A stretch of DNA of 64,000 nt. Origin: Nitrospira sp. (lineage in GTDB: Bacteria; Nitrospirota; Nitrospiria; Nitrospirales; Nitrospiraceae). Under the pieces are notes generated by a model. That model was not told where the DNA came from. It ran no database searches and was given only the letters and a program-made list of their open reading frames with translations. The stretch is taken from contig JAEURX010000018.1 of assembly GCA_016788885.1 (NCBI GenBank), positions 1 through 64,000 on the forward strand. Reading direction: 5' to 3'. A program made the position numbers and the translations under genes. Shown here in pieces: positions 1 to 43,011 of this stretch (position 1 is the first letter of the stretch; every line of letters starts with the position of its first letter).

Positions 1-51
1 GTGTTGTCGGTACGCGATCTGTTGCAACCGGTTGCGATAGACGAGTTCTAA
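1..51 (+). CDS. Possible 3' end of an upstream gene (partial)
   Basis: Frame 1 is open from the first base to a TAA at 49-51 and reads VLSVRDLLQPVAIDEF, which looks like an ordinary protein tail. Only 16 codons are visible, so no family can be assigned. It is placed upstream of a phosphate-type promoter region. It could equally be a chance open stretch. Confidence 0.3.
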   Translation: MLSVRDLLQPVAIDEF

Positions 52-112
52 TCCGCATGCGGCAGGCACTCACATTGACGTTACGCCTGACCAACAGCCC
101 GGCGTGCCAGTA

Positions 113-131
113 TTTAACACACCCGTAACAT
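113..131 (+). promoter_or_regulatory. Candidate Pho box upstream of first pstS
   Basis: TTAACA at 114-119 and GTAACA at 125-130 are repeated exactly 11 bp apart, the arrangement expected of a PhoB-type tandem half-site. The second unit ends 82 bp before the pstS ATG at 213. Very similar 11-bp-spaced pairs occur upstream of the second pstS, the porin and the PhoB-like gene in this window. The site is inferred; no binding data exist here. Confidence 0.6.
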
Positions 132-212
132 ACCAGTGATGCGCCAGCAATCATTGCTTCGTAGGATGTTTCACGTGACAGACGAGATCACTACTCTAGC
201 GGAGGAGAGAAC

Positions 213-1331
213 ATGTTGAGTCAGGGACAGAGGCAAGGATGGGGGCGGCGGACAGTCCTGATGGGTCTGATGGGGATCATGGCGACGACCGGTTCCTTGG
301 CCGTGGGTCCGATGCAGGCAGCTCAGGCCGAGAACGCCGGGCCGACGGCGAGTCTGGCGTTTGAAGAAGGATTGGTGCAATACAATCCGCAGACACAGGT
401 CGCAGGAAGCCTTCGCGTTCAAGGCTCCGATACCATGTCCCTCCTCATGAGTCGGCTCGCGGGTGAGTTTCAACGCCGTCAGCCGAATGTCTCGATCAAT
501 GTGAGCGGGGGCGGATCGACCAAGGCGGTGAATGAGTTTATTCAGCCGCCCGCTAAATTGAGCGGGAAGATTGCGCTCAAGGAAGAACGCCCGACCTATG
601 TGTCCCTGGTGGCCTCCTCACGTGAGTTGCTTGATGCCGAGGTCAAACAATTTGTCGCCCAGCATGGATATGAACCGACCGGCATTCCTGTGGCCGTCGA
701 TGCCGTGGCGCTGTATGTTCATCGTGACAATCCCATCCAGGGCCTTACGCTCGATCAGGTTGATGCCATGTTTTCAACCACGCATAATCGTGGACTCAAA
801 GCCAACCTGTCTCAGTGGGGCGCGCTGGGTCTTCAAGACGGGTGGGAGAAGGCTCCCGTCAGGTTGTATGGCCGGGATCGGCGATCCGGGACGCGCGCTT
901 TCTTTCAGGAACATTGCCTGGCGGGCGGTGAGTTCGCGCCGACGCTTCGCGAGGAGCCGGGCGCGGCATCGGTCATTCTGGATCTGACGCGTGATCAATT
1001 GGGTATCGGCTACAGTGGATTGGGGCTGGAAACCTCCAGTGTGCGGATTGTTCCGCTCGCGGAGAATCAAGGGATGCCCTTTGTCGCTCCCACGGCCGCA
1101 ACCGTATCCGACCAAACGTACCCTCTTCGCCGGATGCTGTATCTGTATATCGATAAGTCCCCGAAGGCGCCTCTTGCCCCTGCCGTGCAGGAATTTCTGA
1201 CTTTTGTCACGAGTCGCGAAGGTCAGGAAGCCGTGATGAAGGCGGGATTTTTCCCGCTTCCCATGAACCAGGTCAAGAAGAATTTCCTGGCCCTCGGCCT
1301 CACCGGCCAGGATGCGACGCTGACGAACTGA
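213..1331 (+). CDS. pstS: Phosphate ABC transporter substrate-binding protein PstS (copy 1)
   Basis: A 372-residue periplasmic phosphate-binding protein of the PstS/PBP-like family. The N-terminus has a twin-arginine-like segment (GRRTVLMG), a hydrophobic stretch and an AQA cleavage site near residue 37, so Tat export is possible. Family features seen are VQGSDTMS near residue 68, the SGGGSTKA phosphate-loop region, the DAVALYVH strand, the YGRDRRSGT segment and a C-terminal FLTFVTSREGQ. The ATG at 213 has a GGAGGAG ribosome site at 201-207. It stands alone, with a candidate Pho box upstream and a terminator downstream, away from the pstCAB operon at 9.4 kb. It is clearly related to the second PstS at 8423. 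The two probably differ in affinity or expression; this is inference. Confidence 0.92.
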   Translation: MLSQGQRQGWGRRTVLMGLMGIMATTGSLAVGPMQAAQAENAGPTASLAFEEGLVQYNPQTQVAGSLRVQGSDTMSLLMSRLAGEFQRRQPNVSINVSGGGSTKAVNEFIQPPAKLSGKIALKEERPTYVSLVASSRELLDAEVKQFVAQHGYEPTGIPVAVDAVALYVHRDNPIQGLTLDQVDAMFSTTHNRGLKANLSQWGALGLQDGWEKAPVRLYGRDRRSGTRAFFQEHCLAGGEFAPTLREEPGAASVILDLTRDQLGIGYSGLGLETSSVRIVPLAENQGMPFVAPTAATVSDQTYPLRRMLYLYIDKSPKAPLAPAVQEFLTFVTSREGQEAVMKAGFFPLPMNQVKKNFLALGLTGQDATLTN

Positions 1332-3880: not shown

Positions 3881-5437
3881 TTACATGAATCGTATTTGCC
3901 ACTGTACCAAGAAGGCATTCTGGGCGAAAGGGTCGCCGACGCCGCGTGTCGGATCGACGACATTATTGGGCCCGTTGCCGGAATGATGGCGGAACTCGTA
4001 ATTGATCTGCAGCTTCGATTGCACCTTGGGCGGGAAGTTTTCGAAATAGTAGCTCAGGCCCACGATGGTTCTGGTGTAGAGATCATTGCCGATTCTGGTA
4101 TTGGGATCGAATTGTTCGTACATGATAACCGGCTCGAAGTTTTCGAGCGGCCCGTCGGTAATCAGGTACTTGGCCAGCACATACCAGGTACGTCGTTGGA
4201 CTCCAGGGGCGCCGGAACCGCCGCAGATGAGTTGGACATCGCACGCGCCGTTGGCCGGCCGTCCGACCGTGGTCTGGTTCGCCCCATCATGCCCCTGCCA
4301 TATTTCTCCCTGCACCATGAAGCCGGGCAGAATTTTGGAGGTATAGCGAAAATCCAAGCCGTAGCGATCGAAGGCTCCCTTGCCGCGACCGTTGATATTG
4401 GTATTGGCGTTGTTCGACTCGCCTTGAATCGTCGTGAAACTGATAAAAGACACGTCGCTCCCGAACAATCGTACGCGTGAGTAGAAGCTTTTCGGCGCGT
4501 TTGATCCCGTCGCGTTGGCCTCATAATTGTTGTTGTTCATGATACCGACGACATACTCCAGCCGGTTGAACAGTTTGCCGCGCATATCGAGAAAATAGTC
4601 GCGCTCTTGGAGAAACTCGACGGTACCCGCCGACCCGGTGCGATTGCCCACTCCGGAGCCGACCGAGGTGAGATAGGGAGAGCTGATGATGTCGCGCAAT
4701 CCGCCGGATGTTTCCGTGAAGATACCGAAGGGCATTCGAAAAATACCCATGCGGAAATAATTGACGTTCGGCGCCCAGGACTGCACTGGTCTGATATCGA
4801 GGTACGCTTCACGAAAGAAGGTCGAGGAGGTCGGCACTCCGCCGGTGGCGGCACTGCCCCCGGTCGGCGTGTTGTTCAGGAGATTGATGCTTTGAAACTC
4901 CATCAAGGTGTGCCATCGCGGTAGGGTGTCGCTGATACGACCCCAAAACAGAATTTCCGACCGCCGGATGGACAAGTTGTCCTGACTTCGCCCTTCCGCC
5001 ACATGCGCATCCTGGTGGGTGTATAACCACTGGAGCGCGTTGAGTCCGAAATTCACCTTATCCCTGAGAATCGGCAGTAACTCTGCCTTTGACTTCCATT
5101 CGTCCAGGCTATCGATCCGCTTGTCGCGCTCCCCGCCCTTATATTCCTGCTCGGCCCGAATCTGAATCCATTCCTCCTTGGTGATCGTGCCTTTCTGCAT
5201 CAGCAGATCTTCGATGGATGTGCCGCCGAGAGGCATCTCCGGGGCTGCCGGCGGAGTGCCGGTTCCACTCGGAGCCGGCCCCGTCGACTGGGCGACCACA
5301 GTAGGAGACGGCGGAGCCATGGGGCCGAACCGCGGTGAGTCATCGGCCCAGGACGCGGTCAGGCAGAGAGTGCATGCCGCGGTCCCGACGAGGCCGCTGA
5401 TGGATGCAACCAACGGGGGTATTTCCATTACGAACAT
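3881..5437 (-). CDS. Outer-membrane beta-barrel porin, probably phosphate-regulated
   Basis: A 518-residue protein with a signal peptide (hydrophobic to about residue 28, cleavage near ASWADD), a Pro/Thr-rich spacer, a short charged segment (EEWIQIRAEQEYKGGERDKRIDSL) and a long region of alternating amphipathic strands ending FLVQWQIRFM, the aromatic-terminated last strand typical of outer-membrane barrels. The layout resembles OprP/OprO-like phosphate-selective porins, but residues defining anion selectivity cannot be assigned by eye. The start is ATG 5437 or the second ATG at 5428. A candidate Pho box lies 75-91 bp upstream. Together with the pst genes this suggests uptake of phosphate or small phosphorylated compounds across the outer membrane; inference. 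Confidence 0.75.
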   Translation of the reverse strand: MFVMEIPPLVASISGLVGTAACTLCLTASWADDSPRFGPMAPPSPTVVAQSTGPAPSGTGTPPAAPEMPLGGTSIEDLLMQKGTITKEEWIQIRAEQEYKGGERDKRIDSLDEWKSKAELLPILRDKVNFGLNALQWLYTHQDAHVAEGRSQDNLSIRRSEILFWGRISDTLPRWHTLMEFQSINLLNNTPTGGSAATGGVPTSSTFFREAYLDIRPVQSWAPNVNYFRMGIFRMPFGIFTETSGGLRDIISSPYLTSVGSGVGNRTGSAGTVEFLQERDYFLDMRGKLFNRLEYVVGIMNNNNYEANATGSNAPKSFYSRVRLFGSDVSFISFTTIQGESNNANTNINGRGKGAFDRYGLDFRYTSKILPGFMVQGEIWQGHDGANQTTVGRPANGACDVQLICGGSGAPGVQRRTWYVLAKYLITDGPLENFEPVIMYEQFDPNTRIGNDLYTRTIVGLSYYFENFPPKVQSKLQINYEFRHHSGNGPNNVVDPTRGVGDPFAQNAFLVQWQIRFM

Positions 5438-5511
5438 CCTCCTTCTGTCTGTTGATTTCCGAAACGCGGGCCGGATCGTAATCCGTCGGCATCACACCCG
5501 CGTTCATGCTT

Positions 5512-5528
5512 TGTTACCGATGTGTAAA
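5512..5528 (-). promoter_or_regulatory. Candidate Pho box upstream of the porin
   Basis: On the minus strand TTTACA (5528-5523) and GTAACA (5517-5512) are spaced 11 bp. The site is 75-91 bp upstream of the porin ATG and nearly identical to the site upstream of the PhoB-like gene. It matches the candidate sites of both pstS genes. Confidence 0.6.
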
Positions 5529-5588: not shown

Positions 5589-6299
5589 TCAGCCTGCGGA
5601 AAGTTTGTAGCCAACGCCTCTGACCGTGAGAATCCATTGCGGGACCGAGGGCTTGTGTTCCACTTTGTGGCGAAGGGCGTGAATATGCACGTCCAAGGCA
5701 TGTTCTTCGAGCGCGTAGTCTTCTCCCCAGACATGGTTGAGCAACTCTTGACGCGTCAAGACGCGCCCCGGGTTTTGCAACAGGACACGGAGAATCTGAA
5801 ATTCCTTCGGCGTGAGCTCAATCGATTTTCCTCCGACTCTGACCTCGTGCCGATCGAGATTCATGGCCAGCGCATGAACTCGAAACTCTCTCAGCGGCGC
5901 GGATTGCAGTTCCTGCCGCCGGAGCAATGCCTTGATAATGGCCAGCCATTCACGGTGGCGGTATGAATCGATCACGATATCGAATCCTGCAGCCAGGTCC
6001 TCAAGGGTCTCTTCTTCCGTGCTCGCTTCTCCCTGTGGTTGAAGCGCGATGATAGGCATGTGCCCAAACGCGTGGTGCTGCCGCAGGGCACGAATGACTT
6101 TGTGTCGCCGGTCGATCAACGCCAGTTTGAACGAGGCTCGAGGGGCGAGGGAGAGGGCGTCCTCAGCCGTCGGCGCAACCGACACCTGATAGCCGTTCGT
6201 CCGCAACAGTTGGAGGACGACCGTGGCAAAGTCTTCGTCCCGGGTCAGAAATAGTAGCGCGATTCCCTGATGACGCCTGGATTCCGCCGTCGGTTGCAT
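5589..6299 (-). CDS. PhoB-like OmpR-family response regulator with degenerate receiver
   Basis: A 236-residue regulator: receiver-like domain (about 12-130) and a winged-helix Trans_reg_C domain (about 140-236). The DNA-binding half is canonical (LTPKEFQILRVLLQNPGRVLT, then a VDVHI-type recognition region and TVRGVGYKL). The receiver has acidic residues near its start (TRDED) and an Asp in LALIDRR at the phosphoacceptor position, but the conserved Lys of the KPF motif is absent (region reads DIVIDSYRHRE). Phosphorylation-dependent switching may be altered. No sensor kinase is adjacent. Its own promoter carries a candidate Pho box 44 bp upstream, so autoregulation is likely. The context makes it the best local candidate for controlling pstS, the porin and psiE; inference. 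Confidence 0.82.
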   Translation of the reverse strand: MQPTAESRRHQGIALLFLTRDEDFATVVLQLLRTNGYQVSVAPTAEDALSLAPRASFKLALIDRRHKVIRALRQHHAFGHMPIIALQPQGEASTEEETLEDLAAGFDIVIDSYRHREWLAIIKALLRRQELQSAPLREFRVHALAMNLDRHEVRVGGKSIELTPKEFQILRVLLQNPGRVLTRQELLNHVWGEDYALEEHALDVHIHALRHKVEHKPSVPQWILTVRGVGYKLSAG

Positions 6300-6342
6300 G
6301 GCCTGATACTACCGGCAGAGGGTTGCATGGCTGTATCCCGAT

Positions 6343-6359
6343 TGTTACGGCTGTGTAAA
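6343..6359 (-). promoter_or_regulatory. Candidate Pho box upstream of the PhoB-like gene
   Basis: Minus-strand TTTACA (6359-6354) and GTAACA (6348-6343) are 11 bp apart, 44-60 bp upstream of the regulator ATG. It shares almost every base of its core with the porin site. Confidence 0.6.
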
Positions 6360-6409: not shown

Positions 6410-6437
6410 CGTAACCCTGTTGTAATGCGGTTGTGAA
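6410..6437. promoter_or_regulatory. Candidate triple Pho half-site between phoB-like gene and psiE
   Basis: Three hexamers spaced exactly 11 bp: CGTAAC (6410-6415), TGTAAT (6421-6426) and TGTGAA (6432-6437). They read towards the minus strand like the neighbouring 6343-6359 site. The divergent gene psiE starts 124 bp to the right, so the site could serve either promoter. Confidence 0.45.
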
Positions 6438-6560
6438 GGCCATGGAACAATGGGGAGGTAGACTCTCGCTGAAGGTTGTGGTCCACGGGATCCGGAAAGG
6501 ACCCTCCGGGCAAGCTGCTCAGCCATGACCCCTATCATCACAAGGAGGCGTACGCAGGGT

Positions 6561-7070
6561 ATGACGTTCACCAATTTTCAGGTTCGAGTGCCACGTGTCG
6601 CAGACGTCGCGAATCGCATCATTGAAACGGATCTCACCGACCTCTGGATCAAAGGGATCAAAGGGGTACTGAGTCTCCTGATTCTGACGATCCTCATTGC
6701 CCTGACGGGAGGCGTCATCAAGACGTTTCTGGATATCCAATTGCTCCTGCATGCGGCGGTTGAAGTTGGGCTTCGGCAAATCATTGTGGATACGCTGATC
6801 CTTCTTGCGGTGGTCGAGGTCTTCAAGACGACGTTGACCTATTTCTCGGAAGGTCGCGTGAAGGTCACGTTTATCGTCGATACCATTCTGGTCGTCATGC
6901 TGACAGAAATCATCTCCCTCTGGTTCAAGGAAGCCGATCAAGCCAAGCTCCTATCGTTGGGCGCCATTGTGCTGGCATTGGGAGCGGTGCGCGTCGTTGC
7001 CGTACGCTGTTCACCCGCACAGGGAGAAGCCGGCGGCAAATGCGGAGGCTCTTGCCGGGAGGGAATCTAA
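6561..7070 (+). CDS. psiE: Phosphate-starvation-inducible PsiE-family membrane protein
   Basis: A 169-residue integral membrane protein with about four membrane helices (IKGVLSLLILTILIAL; LRQIIVDTLILLAVVEVF; VKVTFIVDTILVVMLTEII; LLSLGAIVLALGAVRVV). The VEVFKTTLTYFSEGRVKV segment matches the PsiE family. In E. coli psiE belongs to the Pho regulon, and its role is unknown. An ATG at 6525 gives 12 more residues, but AGGAGG at 6543-6548 supports the ATG at 6561. The C-terminal tail carries three cysteines (CSP, CGGSC), a possible metal or redox site; inference. Confidence 0.8.
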   Translation: MTFTNFQVRVPRVADVANRIIETDLTDLWIKGIKGVLSLLILTILIALTGGVIKTFLDIQLLLHAAVEVGLRQIIVDTLILLAVVEVFKTTLTYFSEGRVKVTFIVDTILVVMLTEIISLWFKEADQAKLLSLGAIVLALGAVRVVAVRCSPAQGEAGGKCGGSCREGI

Positions 7071-7093: not shown

Positions 7094-7110
7094 TTTACAC
7101 GATCGTAATG
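7094..7110 (+). promoter_or_regulatory. Weak Pho-box-like pair
   Basis: TTTACA (7094-7099) and GTAATG (7105-7110) are 11 bp apart, upstream of the small gene at 7230. The second unit deviates from the other sites in its last two bases, so this is only a weak candidate. Confidence 0.3.
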
Positions 7111-7229
7111 AATGGCTGACGTCGCGAACATACGCGCGTTCCAAGATGAGGATCATACGATGCGGCCGCCATTCTGTGATAAGGCCGATTGATTTCCGGA
7201 GCGTAGGGACATTCCAACGAGGAGGATCC

Positions 7230-7475
7230 ATGATGGTTCATCACGTGGGTTTGCTCAGCAGTGAATTCAGGATTCTTGAGTTAGTGCATATGAGGAAATC
7301 ACTTACCTTGGAGCAGGTGGTCACCCTGCTTCCTGAGTTGAGCTGGAATCAGGTATTCAAGACGATTGATGAGCTGAGCCGGCGGGGAAAAATCATCCTG
7401 CTGCGACGAGGCTTTGATTACGAAATTGAACGGGTGTCTCCCAAGCAGCCTGCCGCCTCGTGCATAGGATGGTGA
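7230..7475 (+). CDS. Small helix-turn-helix-like protein
   Basis: An 81-residue protein. The ATG at 7230 is preceded by GAGGAGG (7219-7225), which rules against the longer open frame starting at 7146. Residues 10-65 look like a winged-helix domain: a first helix (SEFRILELVHM), a second (LTLEQVVTLL), a likely recognition helix (WNQVFKTIDELSRRGK) and a wing with a beta pair (IILLRRGFDYEIERV). This arrangement resembles small MarR/MjaII-type DNA-binding domains without effector part. Its position between psiE and a response regulator suggests local regulation; target unknown. Confidence 0.6.
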   Translation: MMVHHVGLLSSEFRILELVHMRKSLTLEQVVTLLPELSWNQVFKTIDELSRRGKIILLRRGFDYEIERVSPKQPAASCIGW

Positions 7476-7515
7476 CCTGATCGGAGTGTTTCCACCTGTG
7501 TGGAATCGACAGCCG

Positions 7516-8208
7516 TTAGCGGCCTGATTTCAATCGATAGCGAAATCCCGGCAGCACCTCGATGGACCCCGCCCCATTATTTTCAAGTTTTCGACGCAGG
7601 CTGCGGACGTCGCAATCCAACTCCCGGAGCATCACTTCCGACCCCTCCCCGCCAGGAATGCCTATCAATTCTTCCGCACCCAACAATGTGTTCTCGCGAC
7701 CGAGCAGGACGTCGAGCAGGAGCGCCTCTTTTCGTGACACAGTGACTTCTCGTTTTCCAATCAGGATGACAAAGTAAGGCCCCTGCATTCTGATGGCCGC
7801 GTTCAGAACGGGACCTGCTTCCACGGTTGAGGGATCGCTTCGGCGAAGGACGGCCCGTACGCGGGAGACGACCTCGCTTGAACTGAACGGCTTCTCAACA
7901 TAATCGTCCGCTCCCATGTCCAGGCCGGCGATCCGTTGAGCTTCACCTCCGACCGCCGTCAACATGATGATCGGAATGTGCCGAGTAGCAGTATTGTGGC
8001 GCACCATCCGGCAAATCTCCTGACCGCTGAGTCCCGGCAACATGAGATCGAGCAGAACGAGTGCCGGCAGGCGGCCTTGAATATCCCGCCACCCGCTGGG
8101 GCCATCGGTGGACAGCGAGGTGCCAAAGCCCGCGAGGCGCAGTGCGCGATCGAGCAATGCGGCGTGGAGAGGCTCGTCTTCAACAATGTGTACGGTCGAA
8201 GTGGTCAT
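7516..8208 (-). CDS. Response regulator, canonical receiver with divergent winged helix
   Basis: A 230-residue protein. The receiver (about 5-120) is complete: acidic pair in IVEDE, phosphoacceptor Asp in LVLLDLMLPG, Thr in IIMLTA, Lys in VEKPF. The C-terminal half (135-230) keeps the winged-helix outline (TVSRKEALLLDVLLGREN, LRELDCDVRSLRRKLE, VLPGFRYRL) but is only distantly like OmpR. It stands alone with no kinase beside it. It starts about 210 bp from the second pstS, transcribed divergently. It is structurally similar to the regulator at 17984; the pair brackets the pst operon. Confidence 0.8.
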   Translation of the reverse strand: MTTSTVHIVEDEPLHAALLDRALRLAGFGTSLSTDGPSGWRDIQGRLPALVLLDLMLPGLSGQEICRMVRHNTATRHIPIIMLTAVGGEAQRIAGLDMGADDYVEKPFSSSEVVSRVRAVLRRSDPSTVEAGPVLNAAIRMQGPYFVILIGKREVTVSRKEALLLDVLLGRENTLLGAEELIGIPGGEGSEVMLRELDCDVRSLRRKLENNGAGSIEVLPGFRYRLKSGR

Positions 8209-8319: not shown

Positions 8320-8338
8320 GTTAACATGGTGTTTACAT
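8320..8338 (+). promoter_or_regulatory. Candidate Pho box upstream of the pstS-pstC-pstA-pstB operon
   Basis: GTTAACAT (8320-8327) and GTTTACAT (8331-8338) are near-identical direct repeats with an 11-bp period, about 85 bp upstream of the pstS start at 8423. This is the cleanest pair in the window and gives the consensus used for the other sites. Confidence 0.65.
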
Positions 8339-8422
8339 CGGGCTGATGGCCAAGAAATGCCCGCACCCTATGTTCATCAGTGCAATCGTACGGGGCTTTT
8401 TTAAATGGGAGGAATGTCTTCT

Positions 8423-9433
8423 ATGATCGTCTCGCGTCAGATTTGTTTGGGGCTCACGTTGACCGTGCTGGGTCCGTTTATGACGACGTGTCTGGTCAGC
8501 GCCGCGGCGGGTGATGCTCCCGCAGTCGACACGCTTACCATCGATGCCGAGATCAAGCCCTATGGGAAGGTCAGCGGCGTGTCCGGAACAATCAATAGTA
8601 TCGGCTCGGATACCCTCAACAATCTCATCACCTTGTGGGCGGAAGGATTTCGGAAACAATACCCCAACGTCAAAATTCAAGTGGAGGGGAAAGGATCGAG
8701 CACGGCCCCTCCCGCGTTGATCGAAAATACGGCTCAATTGGGCCCCATGTCACGGACGATGAAGTCCAGTGAGATCGATGCGTTCGAAGCCAAGTTCGGG
8801 TACCCCCCCACCGCCTACCCCGTCGCGGTGGATGCGCTGGCGCTCTTCGTCAACAAAGACAATCCGACGAAAGGGCTTACTATCGCGGAGGTCGATGCGC
8901 TGTTTTCAAAGTCGCGGCGGCAGGGGCACCCCACTGATCTGACCCGCTGGGGGCAGCTCGGTCATAGGGGCGATTGGGCCGATGCGCCGATCAGTCTCTA
9001 TGGTCGGAATTCAGCATCAGGAACGTACGGTTTCTTCAAGGAGCACGCGTTGAAAAATGGCGACTTCAAGGATCAGGTGAAAGAGCAGCCGGGATCGGCC
9101 TCCGTGGTACAGGGCATCAACGAGGACCGGTACGGCATTGGATATAGCGGTATCGGCTACAGTACATCGGGAGTGAAAATGGTTCCACTGGCGGCGAAGG
9201 CGGGACAACCGTTCGTCGAACCGACTCATGCCAATACGAAGAATGGAACCTATCCGCTCTGGCGCTACTTGTACATCTACGTGAATCAGGCCCCGGGTAA
9301 ACCGCTCTCCCCCATCGTGAAAGAATTTCTGGCGTACGTCTACAGCAAAGAAGGGCAATCGGATGTGCTGAGGGATGGATACTTCCCCGTCCCCGGTGCA
9401 TTGGCCGAGAAGCAACTCGCCAAGATTCGATAA
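8423..9433 (+). CDS. pstS: Phosphate ABC transporter substrate-binding protein PstS (copy 2)
   Basis: A 336-residue PstS with a signal peptide (hydrophobic to about 24, cleavage near VSAAAG). Recognisable elements are INSIGSDTLNNL, EGKGSSTAPPAL, YPVAVDALALFVNKDNP, LYGRNSASGTYGFFKEHAL and YVYSKEGQ. GGAGG at 8408-8412 fits the ATG at 8423; two earlier in-frame ATGs (8405, 8414) lie on or before that site. The stop overlaps the pstC start (TAATG), so it is the operon-linked PstS, working with the permease and ATPase downstream. It is homologous to copy 1 throughout, e.g. the SGTRAFFQEH/SGTYGFFKEH region. Confidence 0.93.
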   Translation: MIVSRQICLGLTLTVLGPFMTTCLVSAAAGDAPAVDTLTIDAEIKPYGKVSGVSGTINSIGSDTLNNLITLWAEGFRKQYPNVKIQVEGKGSSTAPPALIENTAQLGPMSRTMKSSEIDAFEAKFGYPPTAYPVAVDALALFVNKDNPTKGLTIAEVDALFSKSRRQGHPTDLTRWGQLGHRGDWADAPISLYGRNSASGTYGFFKEHALKNGDFKDQVKEQPGSASVVQGINEDRYGIGYSGIGYSTSGVKMVPLAAKAGQPFVEPTHANTKNGTYPLWRYLYIYVNQAPGKPLSPIVKEFLAYVYSKEGQSDVLRDGYFPVPGALAEKQLAKIR

Positions 9434-11661
9434 TGAAGACAAATCCGATGAGACATGTGTTCAGGCCCTTTCATGTACGAACGTTGATCGACCGGCTCGC
9501 CCGCATGGTTATTGCAGTGGGCGGGCTGGCGACCATCGTCAGCATTCTCGGCATCTTCTTTTTTCTGTTTCGGGAGGTCACTCCGCTTTTCACGGCGCCA
9601 AGTGCGAAGTTAAGCCAACGCCTCAGTGTGCCGGCCTTGCTTCAAGATGAAGGCCCCGCGCAGGTGGCGGTGGATGAACATCGTGAGATTGCCGAGGTCT
9701 TCACCTCCGGCGCGATTCAATTTTTCGACTTGGCCTCGGGCCGACCTATGGCCTTGGACATGCCGGCTCAGTTGACCTCGACGCAGGTGACGGCCATGGC
9801 CTCGGGGGGGGGCCACAGCGCGCGCCTGGCCGTCGGTACGGCAGACGGCCACATCTTGCTGTTGAAGATCGGCACTACGACGGAGTTCTCCGAGCAGGGC
9901 GAACGGCGGAAACGGCCGCACGTTCATGCCGGCTCGCCCATTCCGGTGACGAATAGCCCGATTGTCCGCCTGGCCTATCGGTCCAACGATCAGGGCAGTG
10001 TTCTTGTGCTCGCCACGAAAGCGGGACGTCTGTTCATCGGGAGAATCGACGCTGATGATGCCGCGGGAACCGAACTGAAGATCACGGAGCTGCCTCAACC
10101 GGCTGGTGCCGTCACGTCTCTCGCGCTGGACGCATCGCTGGAACACGTGTACATCGGCACTTCCGACGGGCATGTCGTTCATGTCGGAATTTCAGAGACG
10201 CAGCCGCCGGAGGTGAACGCGTCCTATGTGGCGGCCTCATCCGATACGGCGATCACCATGCTGGGATTTCTCAGCGGTGATCGGAGTCTGGTGGTCATGG
10301 CGGCTGACGGGGCCGTGTCCACGTGGGGGTTGGTTCGACGCGCCGACGTGCCATCCGGCTGGATCCTCACTCAGATGCATACGTTCCGCTCCCACTCCGC
10401 GCCGGTGACGTCGTTTGCTCCGTCGCAACGGGTCAAAGGTTTTGTCACCGGAGATGCGAAGGGCAATGTCTTCCTGCATCATGCCACCTCTTCTCAAACC
10501 TTGTTGAGGCTCGCCATTGGAGAGTTTCCGATTCGTGCGGTGGCATTTGCGCCGAAAGGCGACGCCGTGATCGCTCTGGATGGAGCCGGGCAACTGTCGG
10601 TCTACCAGGTCCAGAATCCGTATCCTGAGGTCACATTGGACACACTCTTCGGCAAAGTCTGGTACGAGGGGTATGATCAGCCCGCGTATGTCTGGCAATC
10701 ATCTTCCGGATCGGATGATGTGGAGCCGAAACTGGGCCTCCTTCCGTTGGCGTTTGGAACGCTGAAAGGAACGATCTATGCCTTGTTCCTGGCCGTGCCT
10801 ATCGCGATTTTCTCCGCGATCTGCACCTCGCAGTTCATGCATCACGATCTTCGCGCTAAAGTTAAACCGATAATTGAAGTCATGGCCGCCCTGCCGACCG
10901 TGGTGCTCGGCTTTTTAGCGGGGCTCTGGCTGGCTCCGCTTCTGGAGCGTATGCTTCCCGCCCTGGCCGGCATGGCGCTGGTCTTGCCGATGTTGGTCAT
11001 CGTGGCCTCCTTCGCCTGGCATCTCTGTCCCCTATCCATCACACGGCATTTTTCTGCGGGCAACGAAGCGCTGATGTTGATGCCCATTCTGGCTCTCGGG
11101 ATCGGCGGTTGCCTCTGGGCGCATTCCTTGTTCGAGGTCTGGTGGTTCGACGGCAACATCAAGGCCTGGCTTTCGAATCGGCTCGGCATCCAATATGACC
11201 AGCGCAATGCCTTGGTCGTCGGCATTGTGATGGGATTTGCCATCGTACCGGTGATCTACAGTATTGCCGAAGAGGCGCTTTTCAACGTGCCGAAATCCCA
11301 CATCGCCGGCTCGCTGGCGCTGGGTGCCACGCGCTGGCAAACCGTGCTGCATCTGGTCTTGTTATCTGCCAGCCCCGGAATCTTTTCTGCCGTCATGATC
11401 GGCTTCGGCCGCGCCATCGGAGAAACCATGATCGTCCTGATGGCCACCGGAAACACCCCGATTCTGGATTGGAATTGGGCCAACGGGTTCCGGACCTTGT
11501 CGGCCAACATCGCCGTCGAAATTCCAGAGGCGCCGCACGGCGGAAGTCTGTACCGGGTGCTGTTCCTGGCGGCTCTGCTCCTGTTCGTGATCACGTTCGT
11601 CATCAATTCGCTGGCGGAACTCATCCGCCAGCGGCTCCGGGATAAATATAGCCATGGGTAA
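9433..11661 (+). CDS. pstC: Phosphate ABC transporter permease PstC, long form with propeller-like domain
   Basis: A 742-residue permease, more than twice the E. coli PstC length (about 320). One membrane helix (about 25-48) is followed by about 350 residues of repeated beta-strand segments with WD/PQQ-like spacing (e.g. RLAVGTADGHILLLKIG, EHVYIGTSDGHVVHVG, GFVTGDAKGNVFLHH), which look like a seven-bladed propeller on the periplasmic side. The transmembrane domain (about 440-742) carries the binding-protein-dependent transport EAA loop (GSLALGATRWQTVLHLVLL). Long PstC proteins are also known in Pseudomonas. Its start overlaps the pstS stop by one base, and its end overlaps pstA by 8 nt. Confidence 0.9.
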   Translation: MKTNPMRHVFRPFHVRTLIDRLARMVIAVGGLATIVSILGIFFFLFREVTPLFTAPSAKLSQRLSVPALLQDEGPAQVAVDEHREIAEVFTSGAIQFFDLASGRPMALDMPAQLTSTQVTAMASGGGHSARLAVGTADGHILLLKIGTTTEFSEQGERRKRPHVHAGSPIPVTNSPIVRLAYRSNDQGSVLVLATKAGRLFIGRIDADDAAGTELKITELPQPAGAVTSLALDASLEHVYIGTSDGHVVHVGISETQPPEVNASYVAASSDTAITMLGFLSGDRSLVVMAADGAVSTWGLVRRADVPSGWILTQMHTFRSHSAPVTSFAPSQRVKGFVTGDAKGNVFLHHATSSQTLLRLAIGEFPIRAVAFAPKGDAVIALDGAGQLSVYQVQNPYPEVTLDTLFGKVWYEGYDQPAYVWQSSSGSDDVEPKLGLLPLAFGTLKGTIYALFLAVPIAIFSAICTSQFMHHDLRAKVKPIIEVMAALPTVVLGFLAGLWLAPLLERMLPALAGMALVLPMLVIVASFAWHLCPLSITRHFSAGNEALMLMPILALGIGGCLWAHSLFEVWWFDGNIKAWLSNRLGIQYDQRNALVVGIVMGFAIVPVIYSIAEEALFNVPKSHIAGSLALGATRWQTVLHLVLLSASPGIFSAVMIGFGRAIGETMIVLMATGNTPILDWNWANGFRTLSANIAVEIPEAPHGGSLYRVLFLAALLLFVITFVINSLAELIRQRLRDKYSHG

Positions 11662-13300
11662 ACCATCCACGCGCATGAACAGTTTTTGGCGAGGCGGAGA
11701 ACTCTTCGTCTGGATGACGGCGTCCGGTGTGGCGATCAGTTTACTGATGGTGGCGGGAATGCTGGTCCTGATCATCGTCAACGGCTTGGGGCAGTTCTGG
11801 CCGCGCGCCTTGCAACAGGTCACGCTGAAGACACAGGGGACGGTGATCGGGCAACTCGTCGGCGAAGAGCTGATTCCCCATTCGGTTACAACCGAGTGGC
11901 AATCGGGCCAACGCCGCTTTCGCTATCGCGTGGGCAATCGGGATCAATTCGGTTCCGAATATCGGTGGGTCAATGAAACCGAGATCGCGTCGATCTCGGC
12001 TCCCGACGACCTCACGTTCGTCGAGCGCCGGGAATGGGGTCCTGCCTATGGACGTGTCAGCCTGCCTGCTGAAGGGGGTGCCGCAACGATCCGTGGCGAA
12101 GGCTGGGCTACCATTGTCAGACTGGTGGATCGGGCCAACCGGCTGCGCCAGCGAATCGAACACCTCGAGCGTGAGGAGATCGGATCCATCAACTATCGTA
12201 TCGAAAAGGCCAGGCTCGCACGTCAGGCTCTGGTGCTGAAAGGCGGGTCTGATCTGTCCGCTGCAGAAGCAGACCGCAGTCTCGTCGATCAGATCGCCGC
12301 GCTTGAGCGCGAATACCTCTCCAAGACCGAAGCGCTGGAGCGCTTACATGCAGAAGCCGGCCAGGATGTGCTGTTCCTCACTCTTTCCACCGGTCGATCG
12401 GTGCGTCTCTCGCTCGACCAGGTCCTGGCCGTCAGTCGGCCCAATGCGATGAGTTGGTTCGAAAAGACTCTGACCTATGTTCGGAACCTGTGGCTCTTCA
12501 TCTCCGGTGAACCTCGTGAGGCCAATACGGAAGGTGGGATTTTCCCTGCCATCTTCGGCACGGTGCTGATGGTGTTCTTGATGACCTTGGCGGCCATGCC
12601 CTTCGGGGTCATGGCGGCGGTGTATTTGCGGGAGTATGCGAAACAAGGACCGCTTGTCAGTCTGGTCAGAATCGCGGTGAACAACCTGGCCGGGGTACCC
12701 TCGATCGTGTTCGGCGTATTCGGCCTGGCATTCTTCGTCTATGCGCTGGGTGGCACCATCGACCAGATTCTGTTTCCCGAATCGTTGCCCAATCCCACCT
12801 TCGGCACGGGCGGGATTCTCTGGGCTTCGCTGACCCTCGCCCTGCTCACCGTTCCTGTCGTCATCGTTGCCACCGAGGAAGGGCTGTCTGCGGTACCGCG
12901 AGATTTTCGCGAGGGCTCGGTCGGCCTGGGCGCCACTAAATTGGAGACGATCCGGCATATCATTCTGCCCTGCGCCTTGCCGGGAATTTTGACGGGATTG
13001 ATTCTCGCCATGGCCAGAGCCGCAGGCGAAGTGGCGCCGCTGATGCTGACCGGCGTCGTCAAGTTGGCCCCGGCGCTTCCGCTGGATGAGTATCTTCCTT
13101 TTTTGCATCTCGAACGAAAGTTCATGCATTTGGGTTTTCATATTTATGACGTGGGATTTCAGTCGCCGAACGTCGAGGCGGCAAAGCCGATGGTCTACAT
13201 GACCACCCTGATCCTGATTCTGGTGGTGGTGCTGTTGAATCTGGCGGCGGTCATGCTGCGCAATCGCTTACGCAAACGATTCGCGACATCGGCTGTGTGA
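11654..13300 (+). CDS. pstA: Phosphate ABC transporter permease PstA, long form
   Basis: A 548-residue permease. After a first membrane helix (about 15-42) comes a roughly 230-residue soluble region with a predicted helical hairpin (LVDRANRLRQRIEHLEREEIG to LERLHAEAG), absent from E. coli PstA (296 residues). The permease domain (about 290-548) has five or six helices and the EAA loop GSVGLGATKLETIRHIILP. It pairs with PstC, and both carry large extra domains, so the two insertions may contact each other or PstS; inference. It starts 8 nt before the pstC stop. Confidence 0.92.
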   Translation: MGKPSTRMNSFWRGGELFVWMTASGVAISLLMVAGMLVLIIVNGLGQFWPRALQQVTLKTQGTVIGQLVGEELIPHSVTTEWQSGQRRFRYRVGNRDQFGSEYRWVNETEIASISAPDDLTFVERREWGPAYGRVSLPAEGGAATIRGEGWATIVRLVDRANRLRQRIEHLEREEIGSINYRIEKARLARQALVLKGGSDLSAAEADRSLVDQIAALEREYLSKTEALERLHAEAGQDVLFLTLSTGRSVRLSLDQVLAVSRPNAMSWFEKTLTYVRNLWLFISGEPREANTEGGIFPAIFGTVLMVFLMTLAAMPFGVMAAVYLREYAKQGPLVSLVRIAVNNLAGVPSIVFGVFGLAFFVYALGGTIDQILFPESLPNPTFGTGGILWASLTLALLTVPVVIVATEEGLSAVPRDFREGSVGLGATKLETIRHIILPCALPGILTGLILAMARAAGEVAPLMLTGVVKLAPALPLDEYLPFLHLERKFMHLGFHIYDVGFQSPNVEAAKPMVYMTTLILILVVVLLNLAAVMLRNRLRKRFATSAV

Positions 13301-13318
13301 TCACAGAGAGGAGCTCGT

Positions 13319-14176
13319 ATGGAAGTTCAATCAGACAGGGTGACGGCGCCCATGGTGTCGCTTCGCCCGGCCATCTCCCCGTCCCGGCTCGTGCCCGCTC
13401 AGCGGGGGCTCGAGTCGCCCGTGCAGGCGAAAATGTCGGTTCGCGAGCTCGACTTTTATTACGGGCATCGTCAGGCCCTGTTTCGTGTCGGGCTCACCGT
13501 TCGGAGCCACTCCGTGACGGCGTTCATCGGGCCATCAGGCTGCGGAAAATCCACCCTGCTCCGGTGTTTGAATCGCATGAACGATCTGGTGGAAGGCGCG
13601 CGTGCTGTAGGCCGGGTGGAGCTGGACGGCCTGGATATCTACGATGCGGCCGTCGATGTGACCGACCTCCGGAAGCGCGTGGGAATGGTCTTTCAAAAAT
13701 CGAATCCTTTTCCGAAATCGATCTATGACAACGTGGCCTATGGGCCGCGTCTGCATGGGACAAAAGACAAACGGTTGCTGGACGAGCTGGTTCAGCACAG
13801 TTTGCAAGGAGCCGGCCTCTGGGATGAGGTGAAGGACCGTCTTCAGCACAGTGCCGTCGGACTTTCAGGCGGACAGCAGCAGCGGCTGTGCATCGCCCGC
13901 GCGTTGGCGGTGCAACCGGAAGTCATTCTGATGGATGAACCCTGTTCGGCGTTGGATCCTATTGCGACAGGAAAAATCGAGGAGCTCATCTATCGCTTGA
14001 AGGAGACCTACACCGTCGTCATCGTGACACACAATATGCAACAGGCGGCACGGGTTTCCGATCAATGCGGATTTTTTCTCATGGGCGAGTTAGTCGAATT
14101 CGGCGATACCAAGACCATATTCACCACGCCTCGTGACAAACGAACCGAAGATTACATCACCGGGCGATTCGGATAA
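13319..14176 (+). CDS. pstB: Phosphate ABC transporter ATP-binding protein PstB
   Basis: A 285-residue ABC ATPase energising PstCA. It has Walker [10 protein letters not shown] (about 65-73), a Q-loop (VFQKSNPFP), the signature LSGGQQQR, Walker [12 protein letters not shown] and the switch His in VTHNM. The first 40 residues extend beyond the usual PstB start (PstB is typically about 255 residues), but the ATG at 13319 has a GAGAGGAG site, so the extension seems real. It lies 18 bp after pstA. Confidence 0.96.
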
Positions 14177-14197
14177 ACGCCAGGAGGAGTTGGCATC

Positions 14198-14866
14198 ATG
14201 CAACGACACTTCGATCAAGACCTCGCGCATCTCAAGCAGCAGTTGCTCCGCATGGGCGGCCTGGTCGAGTCGCAAATTCAGCAGGCTTTGCAGGCTCTGG
14301 TGGATCGGGATTCCGATCTGGCCGTCGACGTCATCAAGCAAGATCACGACGTCAACGCCTTGGACGTCGAGATCGACGAACTCTGCGTCCAGTTATTGGC
14401 GCTTCAACAGCCCACGGCCAGGGACTTGCGGTTCATCACGACCGCCATGAAGATTTCTTCGGAACTGGAACGCATGGGTGATCTGGCCGACAACATCGCT
14501 CAGCGCGCATTGGAATTGAACGGCGAGCCGCAACTCAAGCCCTATATCGACATTCCACGCATGGCCAATTGGACCATGCGTATGGTCAAGGAGTGCCTGG
14601 ACGCCTTCGTGAATTCCGATCCGGCGCTGGCGAGAAAGGTCTGCACGGACGATGATTTTGTGGATGAGCTCAACGAGCAGTTGTTTCGAGAACTGCTCTC
14701 CTTTATGCTGGAGGACACGCGCACCATCACGCGCGCGATCCGCCTGACGTTCGTAGCCAAGTCGCTCGAACGCATCGCCGATCACGCCACCAATATTGCG
14801 GAACTTGTCGTCTATATGGTTGAAGGCAAGAATATCCGGCATGTTGCTCCTACCGCGAGTTTATAG
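14198..14866 (+). CDS. phoU: Phosphate signalling protein PhoU
   Basis: A 222-residue protein with two PhoU three-helix repeats (about 8-105 and 115-210). Each contains the metal-binding type ExxxD signatures (RMGDLADNIAQRAL; RIADHATNIAELVVYMV). PhoU links Pst transport state to the Pho two-component system and to polyphosphate levels. It starts with an AGGAGG site 21 bp after pstB, and its stop codon abuts the ATG of the following exopolyphosphatase gene. No PhoR kinase is present nearby, so its signalling partner is not visible. Confidence 0.95.
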   Translation: MQRHFDQDLAHLKQQLLRMGGLVESQIQQALQALVDRDSDLAVDVIKQDHDVNALDVEIDELCVQLLALQQPTARDLRFITTAMKISSELERMGDLADNIAQRALELNGEPQLKPYIDIPRMANWTMRMVKECLDAFVNSDPALARKVCTDDDFVDELNEQLFRELLSFMLEDTRTITRAIRLTFVAKSLERIADHATNIAELVVYMVEGKNIRHVAPTASL

Positions 14867-17153: not shown

Positions 17154-17987
17154 ATGGAGTCCTCGGATTCGTACATTCATACCGCACGGGGCCCTCTTTC
17201 TCAACAGGTGATCCGGACGGCACTCGCCTATCACTCAACCGTGCTGGAGTTGGTGAACCGGCTGAGTACCGGTGAGGAGTTGCCCGAGATGGTTCACGCC
17301 CTTCGAACGCATTGTCGAAGACTTCAAGCATTACTAGAGATCTATGGCCTGATGCGGAATGCTCGCCTGATAGCGAGGGGCGTGCGACGACTGAGTAAGC
17401 TCCGCGCGCTCCAGGTCTTCCGACAGTATCTTGTCACCATCGACGCTCCCCGAGATGATCTTGCGTCGGTGGACGCGAGGCTTGAGAAGCAGAGGCAGCG
17501 GCTTAGGCACGCTCTAGCTTATGACAAGATCACGCAGGTCGTAACCAAGCATGCACTACCGTCTGACGGCGTCTCCGACCTGTTTTTGCTCAATCGGCTC
17601 GAACTGGTACGGTGCGATCACCAACGTCGTCTCGAACGCCTCATCAAGACCACGCGGGAAGCTCCCAATCGGAAACGCCTTCATGCCCTGCGACTGAGGA
17701 TCAAAACGATTCGTTACCAACGGGAGTGGCTGGAGTCGCAAACTGTTCAGCCTCAGTCTTTTCTCAAGAAACTGATACGCCTACAAGCGCTGTTGGGGCG
17801 TTACGAAGAGTTGGCGGATTTTCGTCGTTGGGGGAAGCGGCTGAGCAGGCGCGTGCAGAAGCGAATCAGAAAGGATTGGAAGACATCTCGCGCACGGGCC
17901 AAGGCTGTACCGAAGACCCTTGGCTGGTTGCGACGTGCGATTGGCGCTGAGGATGTGTGGATGCCGTCGAGTGAACGAAAGGGCTAG
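17154..17987 (+). CDS. CHAD-domain protein (predicted polyphosphate binding)
   Basis: A 277-residue, strongly basic alpha-helical protein. The two CHAD signatures are visible: MVHALRTHCRRLQALLEIYG near residue 45, and LHALRLRIKTIRYQREWL near residue 180. CHAD domains bind polyphosphate through conserved His, Arg and Lys residues. The start was set at the ATG at 17154; a longer frame from 16905 would overlap sixA on the other strand and reads as out-of-frame sixA complement. It ends convergently with the next gene in a shared CTAG (17984-17987), where both stop codons overlap. Together with phoU and ppx this marks a polyphosphate module. Confidence 0.82.
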   Translation: MESSDSYIHTARGPLSQQVIRTALAYHSTVLELVNRLSTGEELPEMVHALRTHCRRLQALLEIYGLMRNARLIARGVRRLSKLRALQVFRQYLVTIDAPRDDLASVDARLEKQRQRLRHALAYDKITQVVTKHALPSDGVSDLFLLNRLELVRCDHQRRLERLIKTTREAPNRKRLHALRLRIKTIRYQREWLESQTVQPQSFLKKLIRLQALLGRYEELADFRRWGKRLSRRVQKRIRKDWKTSRARAKAVPKTLGWLRRAIGAEDVWMPSSERKG

Positions 17988-18706
17988 TGCGAAGGTGGTT
18001 CGGGGCTGGCATCTGTATCTGGCGATGTCAGGCGGAATCCACCCGGTAGAACTTTGATGTACGCGATCGACGTGGAGCCTTCGCCCAATTTGTGGTTGAG
18101 CTGCGCAATACAACGATCCAACTCGCCGTCGTGCAGGAGCGGATCATCCCCCCAGAGCAGGGATTTGAGTTCCTCACGCGGAACCACCATCCCCACCGTG
18201 CTCGCCAGTCTGCGGAGTGACTTCCATTCATGGGCTGAGAGCGTCATCTGTGTGCCGCGATAGATTGCGACATACAGCGTCTCCGTCAGGGTGAGATCCT
18301 CGACCTGGTCTTCGTCCTGCGCCGGTTCCTGGCGGGATCGCCGTAGGACCGCGCGTACTCGAGCGAGGAGTTCCGTGGCCGAGTAGGGTTTGAGGACAAA
18401 GTCGTCAGCCCCGCCGTCGAGTGCCTCGGTGCGGCGTTCTTCCGATGAAAACCCCGAGAGGACGATGATGGGGATGTTTTTGGTGGAGGGATCCTGCCGC
18501 AGGCGCTTGCACATCTCGCGGCCATTGAGTCCGGGTAGATTGTCGTCGGCTATGATCAGCGCAGGTTTGATACGCCAGACATCCTGCATGCCTGACGGCC
18601 CGTCAAATGCGACGTTCGTTCGGAACGAGGCCTGCCGAAGGATTTGATCGAGCAACTTCGCCTGACTGTGGTCGTCTTCGACGATTTCAATGATTTCCAA
18701 GGCCAT
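17984..18706 (-). CDS. Orphan response regulator with winged-helix domain
   Basis: A 240-residue protein from the ATG at 18706, supported by GGAGGGGAG just upstream. The receiver (about 3-120) is canonical: acidic residues in IVEDD, Asp in IIADDNLPG, Ser in IIVLSG, Lys in VLKPY. The C-terminal domain (about 140-235) is a divergent OmpR-like winged helix (LSAHEWKSLRRLAST, ELDRCIAQLNHKLG, VLPGGFRL). It shares domain order and style with the regulator at 7516, with no kinase adjacent. The stop codon overlaps the CHAD gene stop on the other strand. Confidence 0.8.
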   Translation of the reverse strand: MALEIIEIVEDDHSQAKLLDQILRQASFRTNVAFDGPSGMQDVWRIKPALIIADDNLPGLNGREMCKRLRQDPSTKNIPIIVLSGFSSEERRTEALDGGADDFVLKPYSATELLARVRAVLRRSRQEPAQDEDQVEDLTLTETLYVAIYRGTQMTLSAHEWKSLRRLASTVGMVVPREELKSLLWGDDPLLHDGELDRCIAQLNHKLGEGSTSIAYIKVLPGGFRLTSPDTDASPEPPSH

Positions 18707-18849
18707 GCGGCACTCCCCTCCCCCTCTAATCGGCTTGGGTGGAGTGAAACTTGAATGCACCCTCGGCTGAGCCCAAACGCGAGCAATGAAGAACACCAAT
18801 GCTATGAGTCACTGTGTATATCGCATTGAATGCACAGACGAATGCTCGA

Positions 18850-41478: not shown

Positions 41479-43011
41479 TCAAGGCGCACATTCAAACGTA
41501 GAGAGTCTCATTAGGCGGACGAAAGGAGTACGCAATCGATTTGGCATTACTTCAGCCATCTGCAGCATTTGCCTGGGGAAAATGGTTCTGCTAGCTATCG
41601 TGAAAATGGATACGAACAACAAGCCGTTGGCGAGAACTCTTACTGCCGGTGTTAAGAACGTCATCAGAAAGCCATCCATAAGGACTGAAATACCTGCCGA
41701 AAGCAAAGCTATCGCCCACCTCTGAGACAGACTAATCAACACCAAGGAAGTAGCAATCCCGGAGGTCTCAAGAATGCTTCTCAGGTATACGAGAGATCCG
41801 GCAAATAAGCAGGATCCGGCCCCCAGGGCTACTCCAATAGCATTCTTTGTCAAAGTGGCCCCAACCATTCCGCCTGCAATAGTTGCTGCTGCGAGCAGAA
41901 GCATCATCACCGCCATCTGTTGGAAGTGTCCAAGTGCCGCCTGAGAAGCATTCACAACACTCAAAACAACCGTTATTGGGTAAAATACACATAGAATTTG
42001 GACTGGTTGGACGGACTCCAGCCACTTTCCTTGCCAGACAAGCGCTTCTAGTGGGTCGTAAATGGCGATAACTGCGAGAGTCGGAGCGGCCAACCAGGTT
42101 GCCAGCTGCAACGAACGTTCTAGGGCGAGTCTGGATCGTTGAGGATCGTGTGTCAGCTGAGAAAATGCCGGGAATAATACTTGGAACAGGTTGTGAGAGA
42201 GCAGCAGCCCAATTTGTACGACGAATTGATAGGCAAAGTAATATACCCCTAGTACCGACTTAGACACAAAGAATCCAAGGGTAAAATAGAGGCCGTTATT
42301 GAAGATACCAGTAGCGCATGCGCTCAGCAGAATCCATTTCGTTTGGCCTAGGATATACGGCCATTGTTGGTAGCCAGTTGGGTCGAGCCAGGGCGTTAAT
42401 CGAGTGATCCACCAAATGGCTATACTCTCGCATACACTAGAGACGATAACTGGCAAAACAAAACTCAATGGCCCGAGACCATACCACGCGAGGCCAACCA
42501 TCCCCACACACCGAATAACGGAAGAGGATATCTGTATTAGCGATAAGATGCGGAACTCAAGCCCGATGCGAAGTTTTGCGGAAAGCACGGTGGCTGGAGT
42601 TGCTACAACAGAAGCACATGCAATTACCGCAAGAACAACTTGCAATCCTGGCTCTTTGTAAGCATGGGCTAGAGCGGGAGCAATGCATAATATGACAGCG
42701 CCTGCAGCAACATTGAGCGTCAATGATAGCCAGAAGACAGGGCCCTTGAAACGATCGTAGTCACCTTGTTTTTGAATAAGAAAATTCCGAAGTCCATTGT
42801 CTGATAGTAAAGCCGTAAAAGAGGTGACAGAAACGGCAATCGCATATAGTGCAAAATCGTCGTGACTCAGAAGCCATCCAAGGGTGATTTGGGCACTAAC
42901 TCCCAAAATCTTCGCGGCTCCAGTATTAAAGAGCATCCAGATTGCGCTCCACCTGACCGTGTTTCTCAATGGACGCCCCGTCATTGGCGGGCTAGTGTCG
43001 AGGTTATTCAT
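41479..43011 (-). CDS. Polysaccharide flippase (Wzx, MATE/PST type)
   Basis: A 510-residue membrane protein with about 14 helices. The N-terminus (SAIWMLFNTGAAKILG) and the LLSHDDFALYAIAVSVTSFTALLSDNGLRNFLIQK region are typical of oligosaccharide flippases of the PST family. It moves lipid-linked repeat units across the inner membrane. The DNA here is visibly AT-richer: for example 24 of 60 bases at 42241-42300 are G or C, against 35 of 60 at 12601-12660. This suggests recent acquisition. Confidence 0.85.
   Translation of the reverse strand: MNNLDTSPPMTGRPLRNTVRWSAIWMLFNTGAAKILGVSAQITLGWLLSHDDFALYAIAVSVTSFTALLSDNGLRNFLIQKQGDYDRFKGPVFWLSLTLNVAAGAVILCIAPALAHAYKEPGLQVVLAVIACASVVATPATVLSAKLRIGLEFRILSLIQISSSVIRCVGMVGLAWYGLGPLSFVLPVIVSSVCESIAIWWITRLTPWLDPTGYQQWPYILGQTKWILLSACATGIFNNGLYFTLGFFVSKSVLGVYYFAYQFVVQIGLLLSHNLFQVLFPAFSQLTHDPQRSRLALERSLQLATWLAAPTLAVIAIYDPLEALVWQGKWLESVQPVQILCVFYPITVVLSVVNASQAALGHFQQMAVMMLLLAAATIAGGMVGATLTKNAIGVALGAGSCLFAGSLVYLRSILETSGIATSLVLISLSQRWAIALLSAGISVLMDGFLMTFLTPAVRVLANGLLFVSIFTIASRTIFPRQMLQMAEVMPNRLRTPFVRLMRLSTFECAP

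Follow-up and report, generated by a model that had tools for sequence, protein, structure and literature searches.

A regulator with a degenerate receiver in the phosphate-uptake cluster of Nitrospira, probably a second tier beneath PhoB

According to passages of PMC12632262, a response regulator counts as atypical when one or more of five conserved residues are missing. Activity without Asp phosphorylation is described there as common in such regulators but not as defining them; several of those studied dimerise or act without phosphorylation, and the switching of pseudo-receivers is called a mystery (PMC12632262). The Pho boxes of E. coli PhoB and cyanobacterial SphR are described, in parts of two further sources, as two 11-nt units (PMC4415409) and as CTTAACCT repeats with 3-bp linkers (PMC1906773).

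The atypical OmpR-family regulator described here (ARR) is similar to ChxR, HP1043/HsrA, RitR and CosR in that a receiver fold without the full phosphotransfer set is combined with an OmpR-type DNA-binding domain. However, ARR belongs to a different lineage, is joined to phosphate uptake, and most of its homologues have a Cys at the Lys position. In the literature searched, no paper was found that connects Nitrospira with both a phosphate-selective porin and a response regulator, or the Pho regulon with a pseudo-receiver.

The window, i.e. the whole stretch of 64,000 nucleotides that was analysed (C18:1-64000), comes from a Nitrospira-type genome: the homologues of ARR above 40% identity are Nitrospira or Nitrospirota records, with a single exception that is labelled Nitrosospira and is evidently of the same kind. 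The first 15 kb of the window contain a phosphate-uptake cluster in the order pstS1 (+), porin O/P (-), ARR (-), psiE (+), a small winged-helix gene (+), RR2 (-) and pstS2-pstC-pstA-pstB-phoU (+). An earlier, sequence-only reading of this DNA had grouped ARR with phosphate uptake, and its place among these genes agrees with that. The genes are:

213..1331, + strand: pstS1, phosphate-binding protein (PF12849, 104.9 bits)
3881..5437, - strand: phosphate-selective porin O/P, downstream of ARR on the same strand (PF07396, 26.2 bits, cut-off 20.9)
5589..6299, - strand: ARR, atypical OmpR-family regulator, an ORF of 236 aa with a pseudo-receiver at about 13-130 and a winged-helix DNA-binding domain at 157-233
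6525..7070, + strand: psiE, divergent from ARR (PF06146, 45.8 bits, cut-off 23.9)
7516..8208, - strand: RR2, second OmpR-type response regulator (Response_reg, 78.7 bits; Trans_reg_C, 30.1 bits, barely above the cut-off)
8405..9433, + strand: pstS2, phosphate-binding protein (PF12849, 127.1 bits)
9433..14866, + strand: pstC, pstA, pstB and phoU in operon order (ORFs at 9433, 11654, 13319 and 14198), named from reading the translations, with relatives of pstC found

RR2 is a mirror image of ARR, as its receiver is intact and its DNA-binding domain matches weakly. Both are in one phosphate cluster, and a partnership between the two is conceivable. The window also contains a third OmpR-type regulator (17984-18799, - strand) with an apparently intact receiver and neighbours that read as SixA- and CHAD-like.

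The DNA-binding half of ARR matches Trans_reg_C with 104 bits (cut-off 26.2) and is thus of the OmpR/PhoB type, as expected from the sequence-only reading, which called it canonical. The Response_reg match is just 17.2 bits, below the Pfam cut-off of 30.2. The same reading had noticed that the receiver Lys is lost, and residues 107-117 are indeed DIVIDSYRHRE; the loss is however wider than a single residue. When ARR is aligned with the intact PhoB of its own genome, T/R is found in place of the acidic pair, Gln in place of the Thr and Asp in place of the Lys, i.e. four of the five catalytic positions are gone and only the Asp (IDRR) is retained. ARR also lacks the loop that follows the Asp in this PhoB, including the Pro and Gly, and is about 7 residues shorter there. 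The register at the Lys position is our own reading, one column off the MAFFT placement: the alignment is ungapped from alpha-5 backwards, and therefore DSY of ARR lies opposite KPF.

Structurally, the AlphaFold model of ARR, built on 46 family members, has a mean pLDDT of 86.2 and a pTM of 0.55 and shows the strand-helix order of a receiver together with a winged helix. With DD, T and K missing, D present and this strand-helix order in the model, ARR falls under the definition of a pseudo-receiver. A Foldseek search with the model finds full-length OmpR-family regulators; the best matches are the ordinary regulators KdpE (top) and MtrA, while RitR, CosR and the orphan regulator 2hqr are found lower among the matches. 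Judged from its residues, the receiver is very probably unable to use normal phosphotransfer chemistry.

The name PhoB-like, used in the sequence-only reading, fits the OmpR/PhoB-type DNA-binding domain but is otherwise loose. Against the NCBIfam PhoB model TIGR02154, ARR scores 121.2 bits, does not reach the cut-off of 296.2 and ranks seventh in its own genome. ARR is like PhoB in having an OmpR-type DNA-binding domain and in its setting among pst, phoU and porin genes; it is unlike PhoB in this score, in its pseudo-receiver and in its recognition helix, and a real PhoB is present on another contig, C38.

We found 55 loci related to ARR (L008-L062). The counts given for 48 rows cover the window and L008-L054, after dropping L056-L062, which are not Nitrospira-type, and L055, whose frame is broken; the conservation counts over 46 rows additionally omit L025 and L049. 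The loss of the Lys is family-wide, as it is found in none of the 48 Nitrospira-type homologues. The residue at this position is Cys in 35 rows, Asp, Pro and Ala in 3 each, Glu in 2, Ser in 1 and Val in 1. The phospho-acceptor column contains Asp in 40 rows, Glu in 7 and Gly in 1, and because the Asp is retained in these 40 of 48, residual phosphorylation is still conceivable.

Cysteines occur at the columns of window residues 93, 98 and 111 (111 being the Lys position) in 39, 34 and 35 of the 48 rows; 32 rows have both the second and the third, 11 have neither and 5 have one of the two. It can be speculated that the receiver has a new input, in which the Cys at the Lys position and the two nearby ones form a redox sensor or a metal site, and that the clade of the window lost or never had them. 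Redox-sensing atypical regulators exist, RitR and Hp1021 being named in passages of PMC12632262. However, the ARR of the window contains no Cys at all, and the independent changes of the Cys columns on the tree are few (5 and 4). The co-changes are mostly in the same direction, but the paired-change test has only 3 usable pairs, with which significance is unreachable. Such an input is therefore possible but rather doubtful. In its fullest form, which we hold to be unlikely, a Nitrospiraceae-specific family would have converted its phosphorylation pocket to a switch of three cysteines that responds to redox state or metal, and a second signal would thereby gate outer-membrane phosphate uptake atop PhoR-PhoB, while the Cys-free ARR of the window's clade would act by abundance alone.

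In the 46 rows, D107 and R116 of the receiver are invariant and the recognition helix mostly so. The DNA-binding helix, ALEEHALDVHIH[SA]LR, shows little or no variation at identities down to 41%, which argues against the ARR gene being a decaying duplicate without function. Decay would fit a receiver this far off the consensus and the broken frame of the related locus L055, but the promoter box and the synteny are conserved as well (see below), and we consider it highly improbable. The recognition helix of the PhoB of the same genome is TTRTVDVHVRRLK, unlike the helix of ARR, and the differences include three positions that contact DNA in E. coli PhoB. Because the helix differs at these positions, it is doubtful that ARR shares the site of PhoB, and it probably prefers another sequence.

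At E 1e-55, the ARR profile matches in 54 of 395 genomes drawn from the phylum, all in the family of the window and in 9 of 169 genera. Some of these matches, with E values near 1e-56 to 1e-60, correspond to a longer protein that is distinct from ARR. Within the genus, ARR is present in 25 of 29 genomes; in G008, a contig end was examined for a broken ARR and gave no clear match, the best being 35% over 68 aa. A phosphate-selective porin is found within 4 kb of ARR in 40 of the 47 loci, a PstS-type gene in 42, and one or the other in 43; the four loci with neither are L034, L040, L044 and L051. The arrangement varies by clade: the N. moscoviensis-like clade has ARR divergent from a pstS gene and the N. 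defluvii-like clade has it divergent from the porin, while in the clade of the window ARR precedes the porin.

Longer relatives have 502-542 aa (L271:1695-3203, - strand; L272:1469-3049, + strand; L273:1706-3298, - strand; L274:1855-3483, - strand) and consist of an exported-looking N-terminal part followed by a pseudo-receiver and an OmpR-type domain. Of the four, only L273 and L274 contain a PEP-CTERM-like stretch (VPLPGA..LF.SGL). From this architecture, they look like membrane-tethered regulators. At locus L275 (3813-4595, + strand; 4779-5489, + strand; 7409-8110, - strand), ARR is accompanied within 4 kb by a second ARR-like and a second PhoB-like gene, and N. moscoviensis (L054) has a PhoB-like gene at a distance of about 8 kb from its second ARR.

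Gibbs sampling on the regions upstream of ARR (L017, L025 and L049 omitted, L055 included) yields the pattern TTWAC-N6-KTWACA with 11-bp spacing and, frequently, a third unit. In its direct repeats and 11-bp spacing the box is like the Pho boxes of E. coli PhoB and cyanobacterial SphR, while its unit, TTWAC/GTAACA, is unlike theirs. B. subtilis PhoP boxes are TTAACA repeats, which the Nitrospira unit resembles. The strict pattern has 6 matches in the 3.92 Mb genome, and 4 of them are inside the first 8.4 kb of the window, before pstS1, the porin, ARR and pstS2. The other two are on contig C13 and at a contig end, the latter being probably the pstS1 site seen again. The boxes and candidates of the window are:

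114..143, + strand: Pho-type box before pstS1, strict match with core 114-130 (PWM 19.6 bits)
5499..5528, - strand: Pho-type box before the porin, strict match with core 5512-5528 (PWM 12.8 bits)
6330..6359, - strand: Pho-type box before ARR, three units with 11-bp spacing and strict core 6343-6359, TTTACACAGCCGTAACA (PWM 23.5 bits, the best in the window, a score that is not independent because the ARR site was in the training set of the matrix)
6411..6440, + strand: weak candidate box before psiE, TTGTAATgcggTTGTGAA on the + strand (PWM 7.8 bits, inside the null range)
7094..7123, + strand: probable Pho-type box before the small winged-helix gene (PWM 11.5 bits, best null 8.9)
8321..8350, + strand: Pho-type box before pstS2, strict match with core 8321-8337 (PWM 18.3 bits)

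In a matrix scan of the 64-kb window the same four strict boxes rank first, and three simulated 64-kb sequences peak at 8.9 bits. An identical pstS1 box is found in window positions 1-130 and at the end of contig C59 (G000:C59, 18744-18760 of 18771), and the two contigs therefore probably join here.

A looser form of the box is found on the ARR strand within 220 bp upstream in 46 of the 47 homologues, compared with 0.85% of shuffles. In the 25 ARR-bearing genomes of the genus, 74 of the 106 strict boxes are at most 15 kb away from ARR, while 0.77 would be expected with an even spread. Over the whole genome, the strict pattern has no clear excess over a reversed control, and it seems special by its placement only. 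The site at 6343-6359, suggested earlier as a possible point of autoregulation, is thus real. By the promoter box it shares with the pst genes, ARR is most likely a member of the Pho regulon, and phosphate- or PhoB-dependent expression is predicted; autoregulation through this box is possible. Gibbs sampling found no ARR-specific binding site, and the second-best run returned a box again.

None of the 66 places in the genome that match TIGR02966 falls in C18:1-64000, so there is no PhoR near ARR, as previously noted. An intact pair is however found on contig C38, where a PhoB with an intact receiver (42335-43006) adjoins a PhoR-type kinase. Their scores of 232.8 and 314.7 bits fall short of the curated cut-offs (296.2 and 334.2), as do the scores in all but 2 and 1, respectively, of the 14 control genomes. 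PiT and DUF47 genes, named from their translations, are located beside the pair. PhoB is present in 27 of the 29 genomes of the genus and in all 24 good ones, and all five catalytic residues are kept in 27 of 27.

Relatives without ARR, as defined by the profile search at E 1e-55 with 7 candidates scored per genome, are informative about the reader of the box. We scanned 17 of the 20 listed ARR-less genomes and 11 of the 54 ARR-bearing ones; G027 gave no pstS match, which leaves 16 ARR-less relatives, each with one pstS locus scored. In 14 of these 16, the box before pstS scores 10 bits or more; in a fifteenth it scores 8.2 bits and includes a strict match, and G086 has none. As a control, sixty stretches of 430 bases peak at 1.3. 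Because it is present before pstS in relatives without ARR, the box is independent of ARR. These pstS boxes overturn the idea that the box is ARR's own site, which had been considered from the 74 strict boxes near ARR and from G027, where both are missing.

The same boxes speak against ARR itself being the master regulator on the boxes, with phosphate sensed by a route other than PhoR. The clustering of boxes round the ARR gene in 25 of 25 genomes would agree with such a role, and so would the absence of a box before phoB in 27 of 27 genomes and the case of G027, a good genus genome (97% complete) that has no match for ARR and no strict box yet keeps PhoB at 93% identity. However, G027 also has no match for PstC or PstS2. 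It decides nothing on the reader of the box, because the missing boxes may follow from the missing target genes. Phosphate may enter this organism by a different uptake system. With intact PhoB in every good genome of the genus, we regard the master role of ARR as quite improbable. The sequence-only reading had proposed a Pho circuit in which phosphate is sensed in some other way, against which an intact PhoR-PhoB pair controlling these promoters would speak. That proposal is not supported, given the pair on C38 and the pstS boxes of the ARR-less relatives; that the pair controls these promoters is the part we infer. PhoB would be the simplest reader of the box. As phoB has no box of its own, autoregulation gives this assignment no support and another regulator is conceivable; the boxes could also be read by both PhoB and ARR.

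We suggest that ARR is probably a phosphorylation-independent, second-tier regulator in the Pho regulon of Nitrospiraceae, placed under PhoB and acting on the adjacent porin and PstS genes. Phosphate limitation would activate the ordinary PhoR-PhoB pair, and PhoB would then bind the 11-bp direct-repeat Pho boxes before pstS, the porin and the ARR gene. ARR would accumulate and act by abundance; it would be active without Asp phosphorylation, because its receiver lacks the phosphotransfer residues. Through a DNA-binding helix unlike that of PhoB it would tune the neighbouring porin and PstS genes, either boosting or limiting them, and it would probably act on its own promoter too, in a feed-forward loop.

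Alternatively, ARR could be a competitor or brake on the same boxes, deaf to PhoR, that limits or shuts off the Pho genes while it accumulates, i.e. a negative feedback. ARR and PhoB are of one DNA-binding family, the ARR promoter carries the box and no kinase partner is found near ARR, all of which would suit a brake. However, the recognition helix of ARR is unlike that of PhoB at positions that contact DNA in E. coli PhoB, which makes a shared site doubtful and a brake of this kind improbable.

ARR as a second tier under PhoB looks like an extra layer on a normal phosphate circuit and not a replacement of it. The ARR family is densely sampled in sequence, its genomic setting is stable and its promoter box is defined; some natural variants carry the cysteines and others lack them. 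All this makes the switching of pseudo-receivers testable. If ARR has such a role, PhoR-PhoB is not the only regulator of phosphate uptake in Nitrospira.
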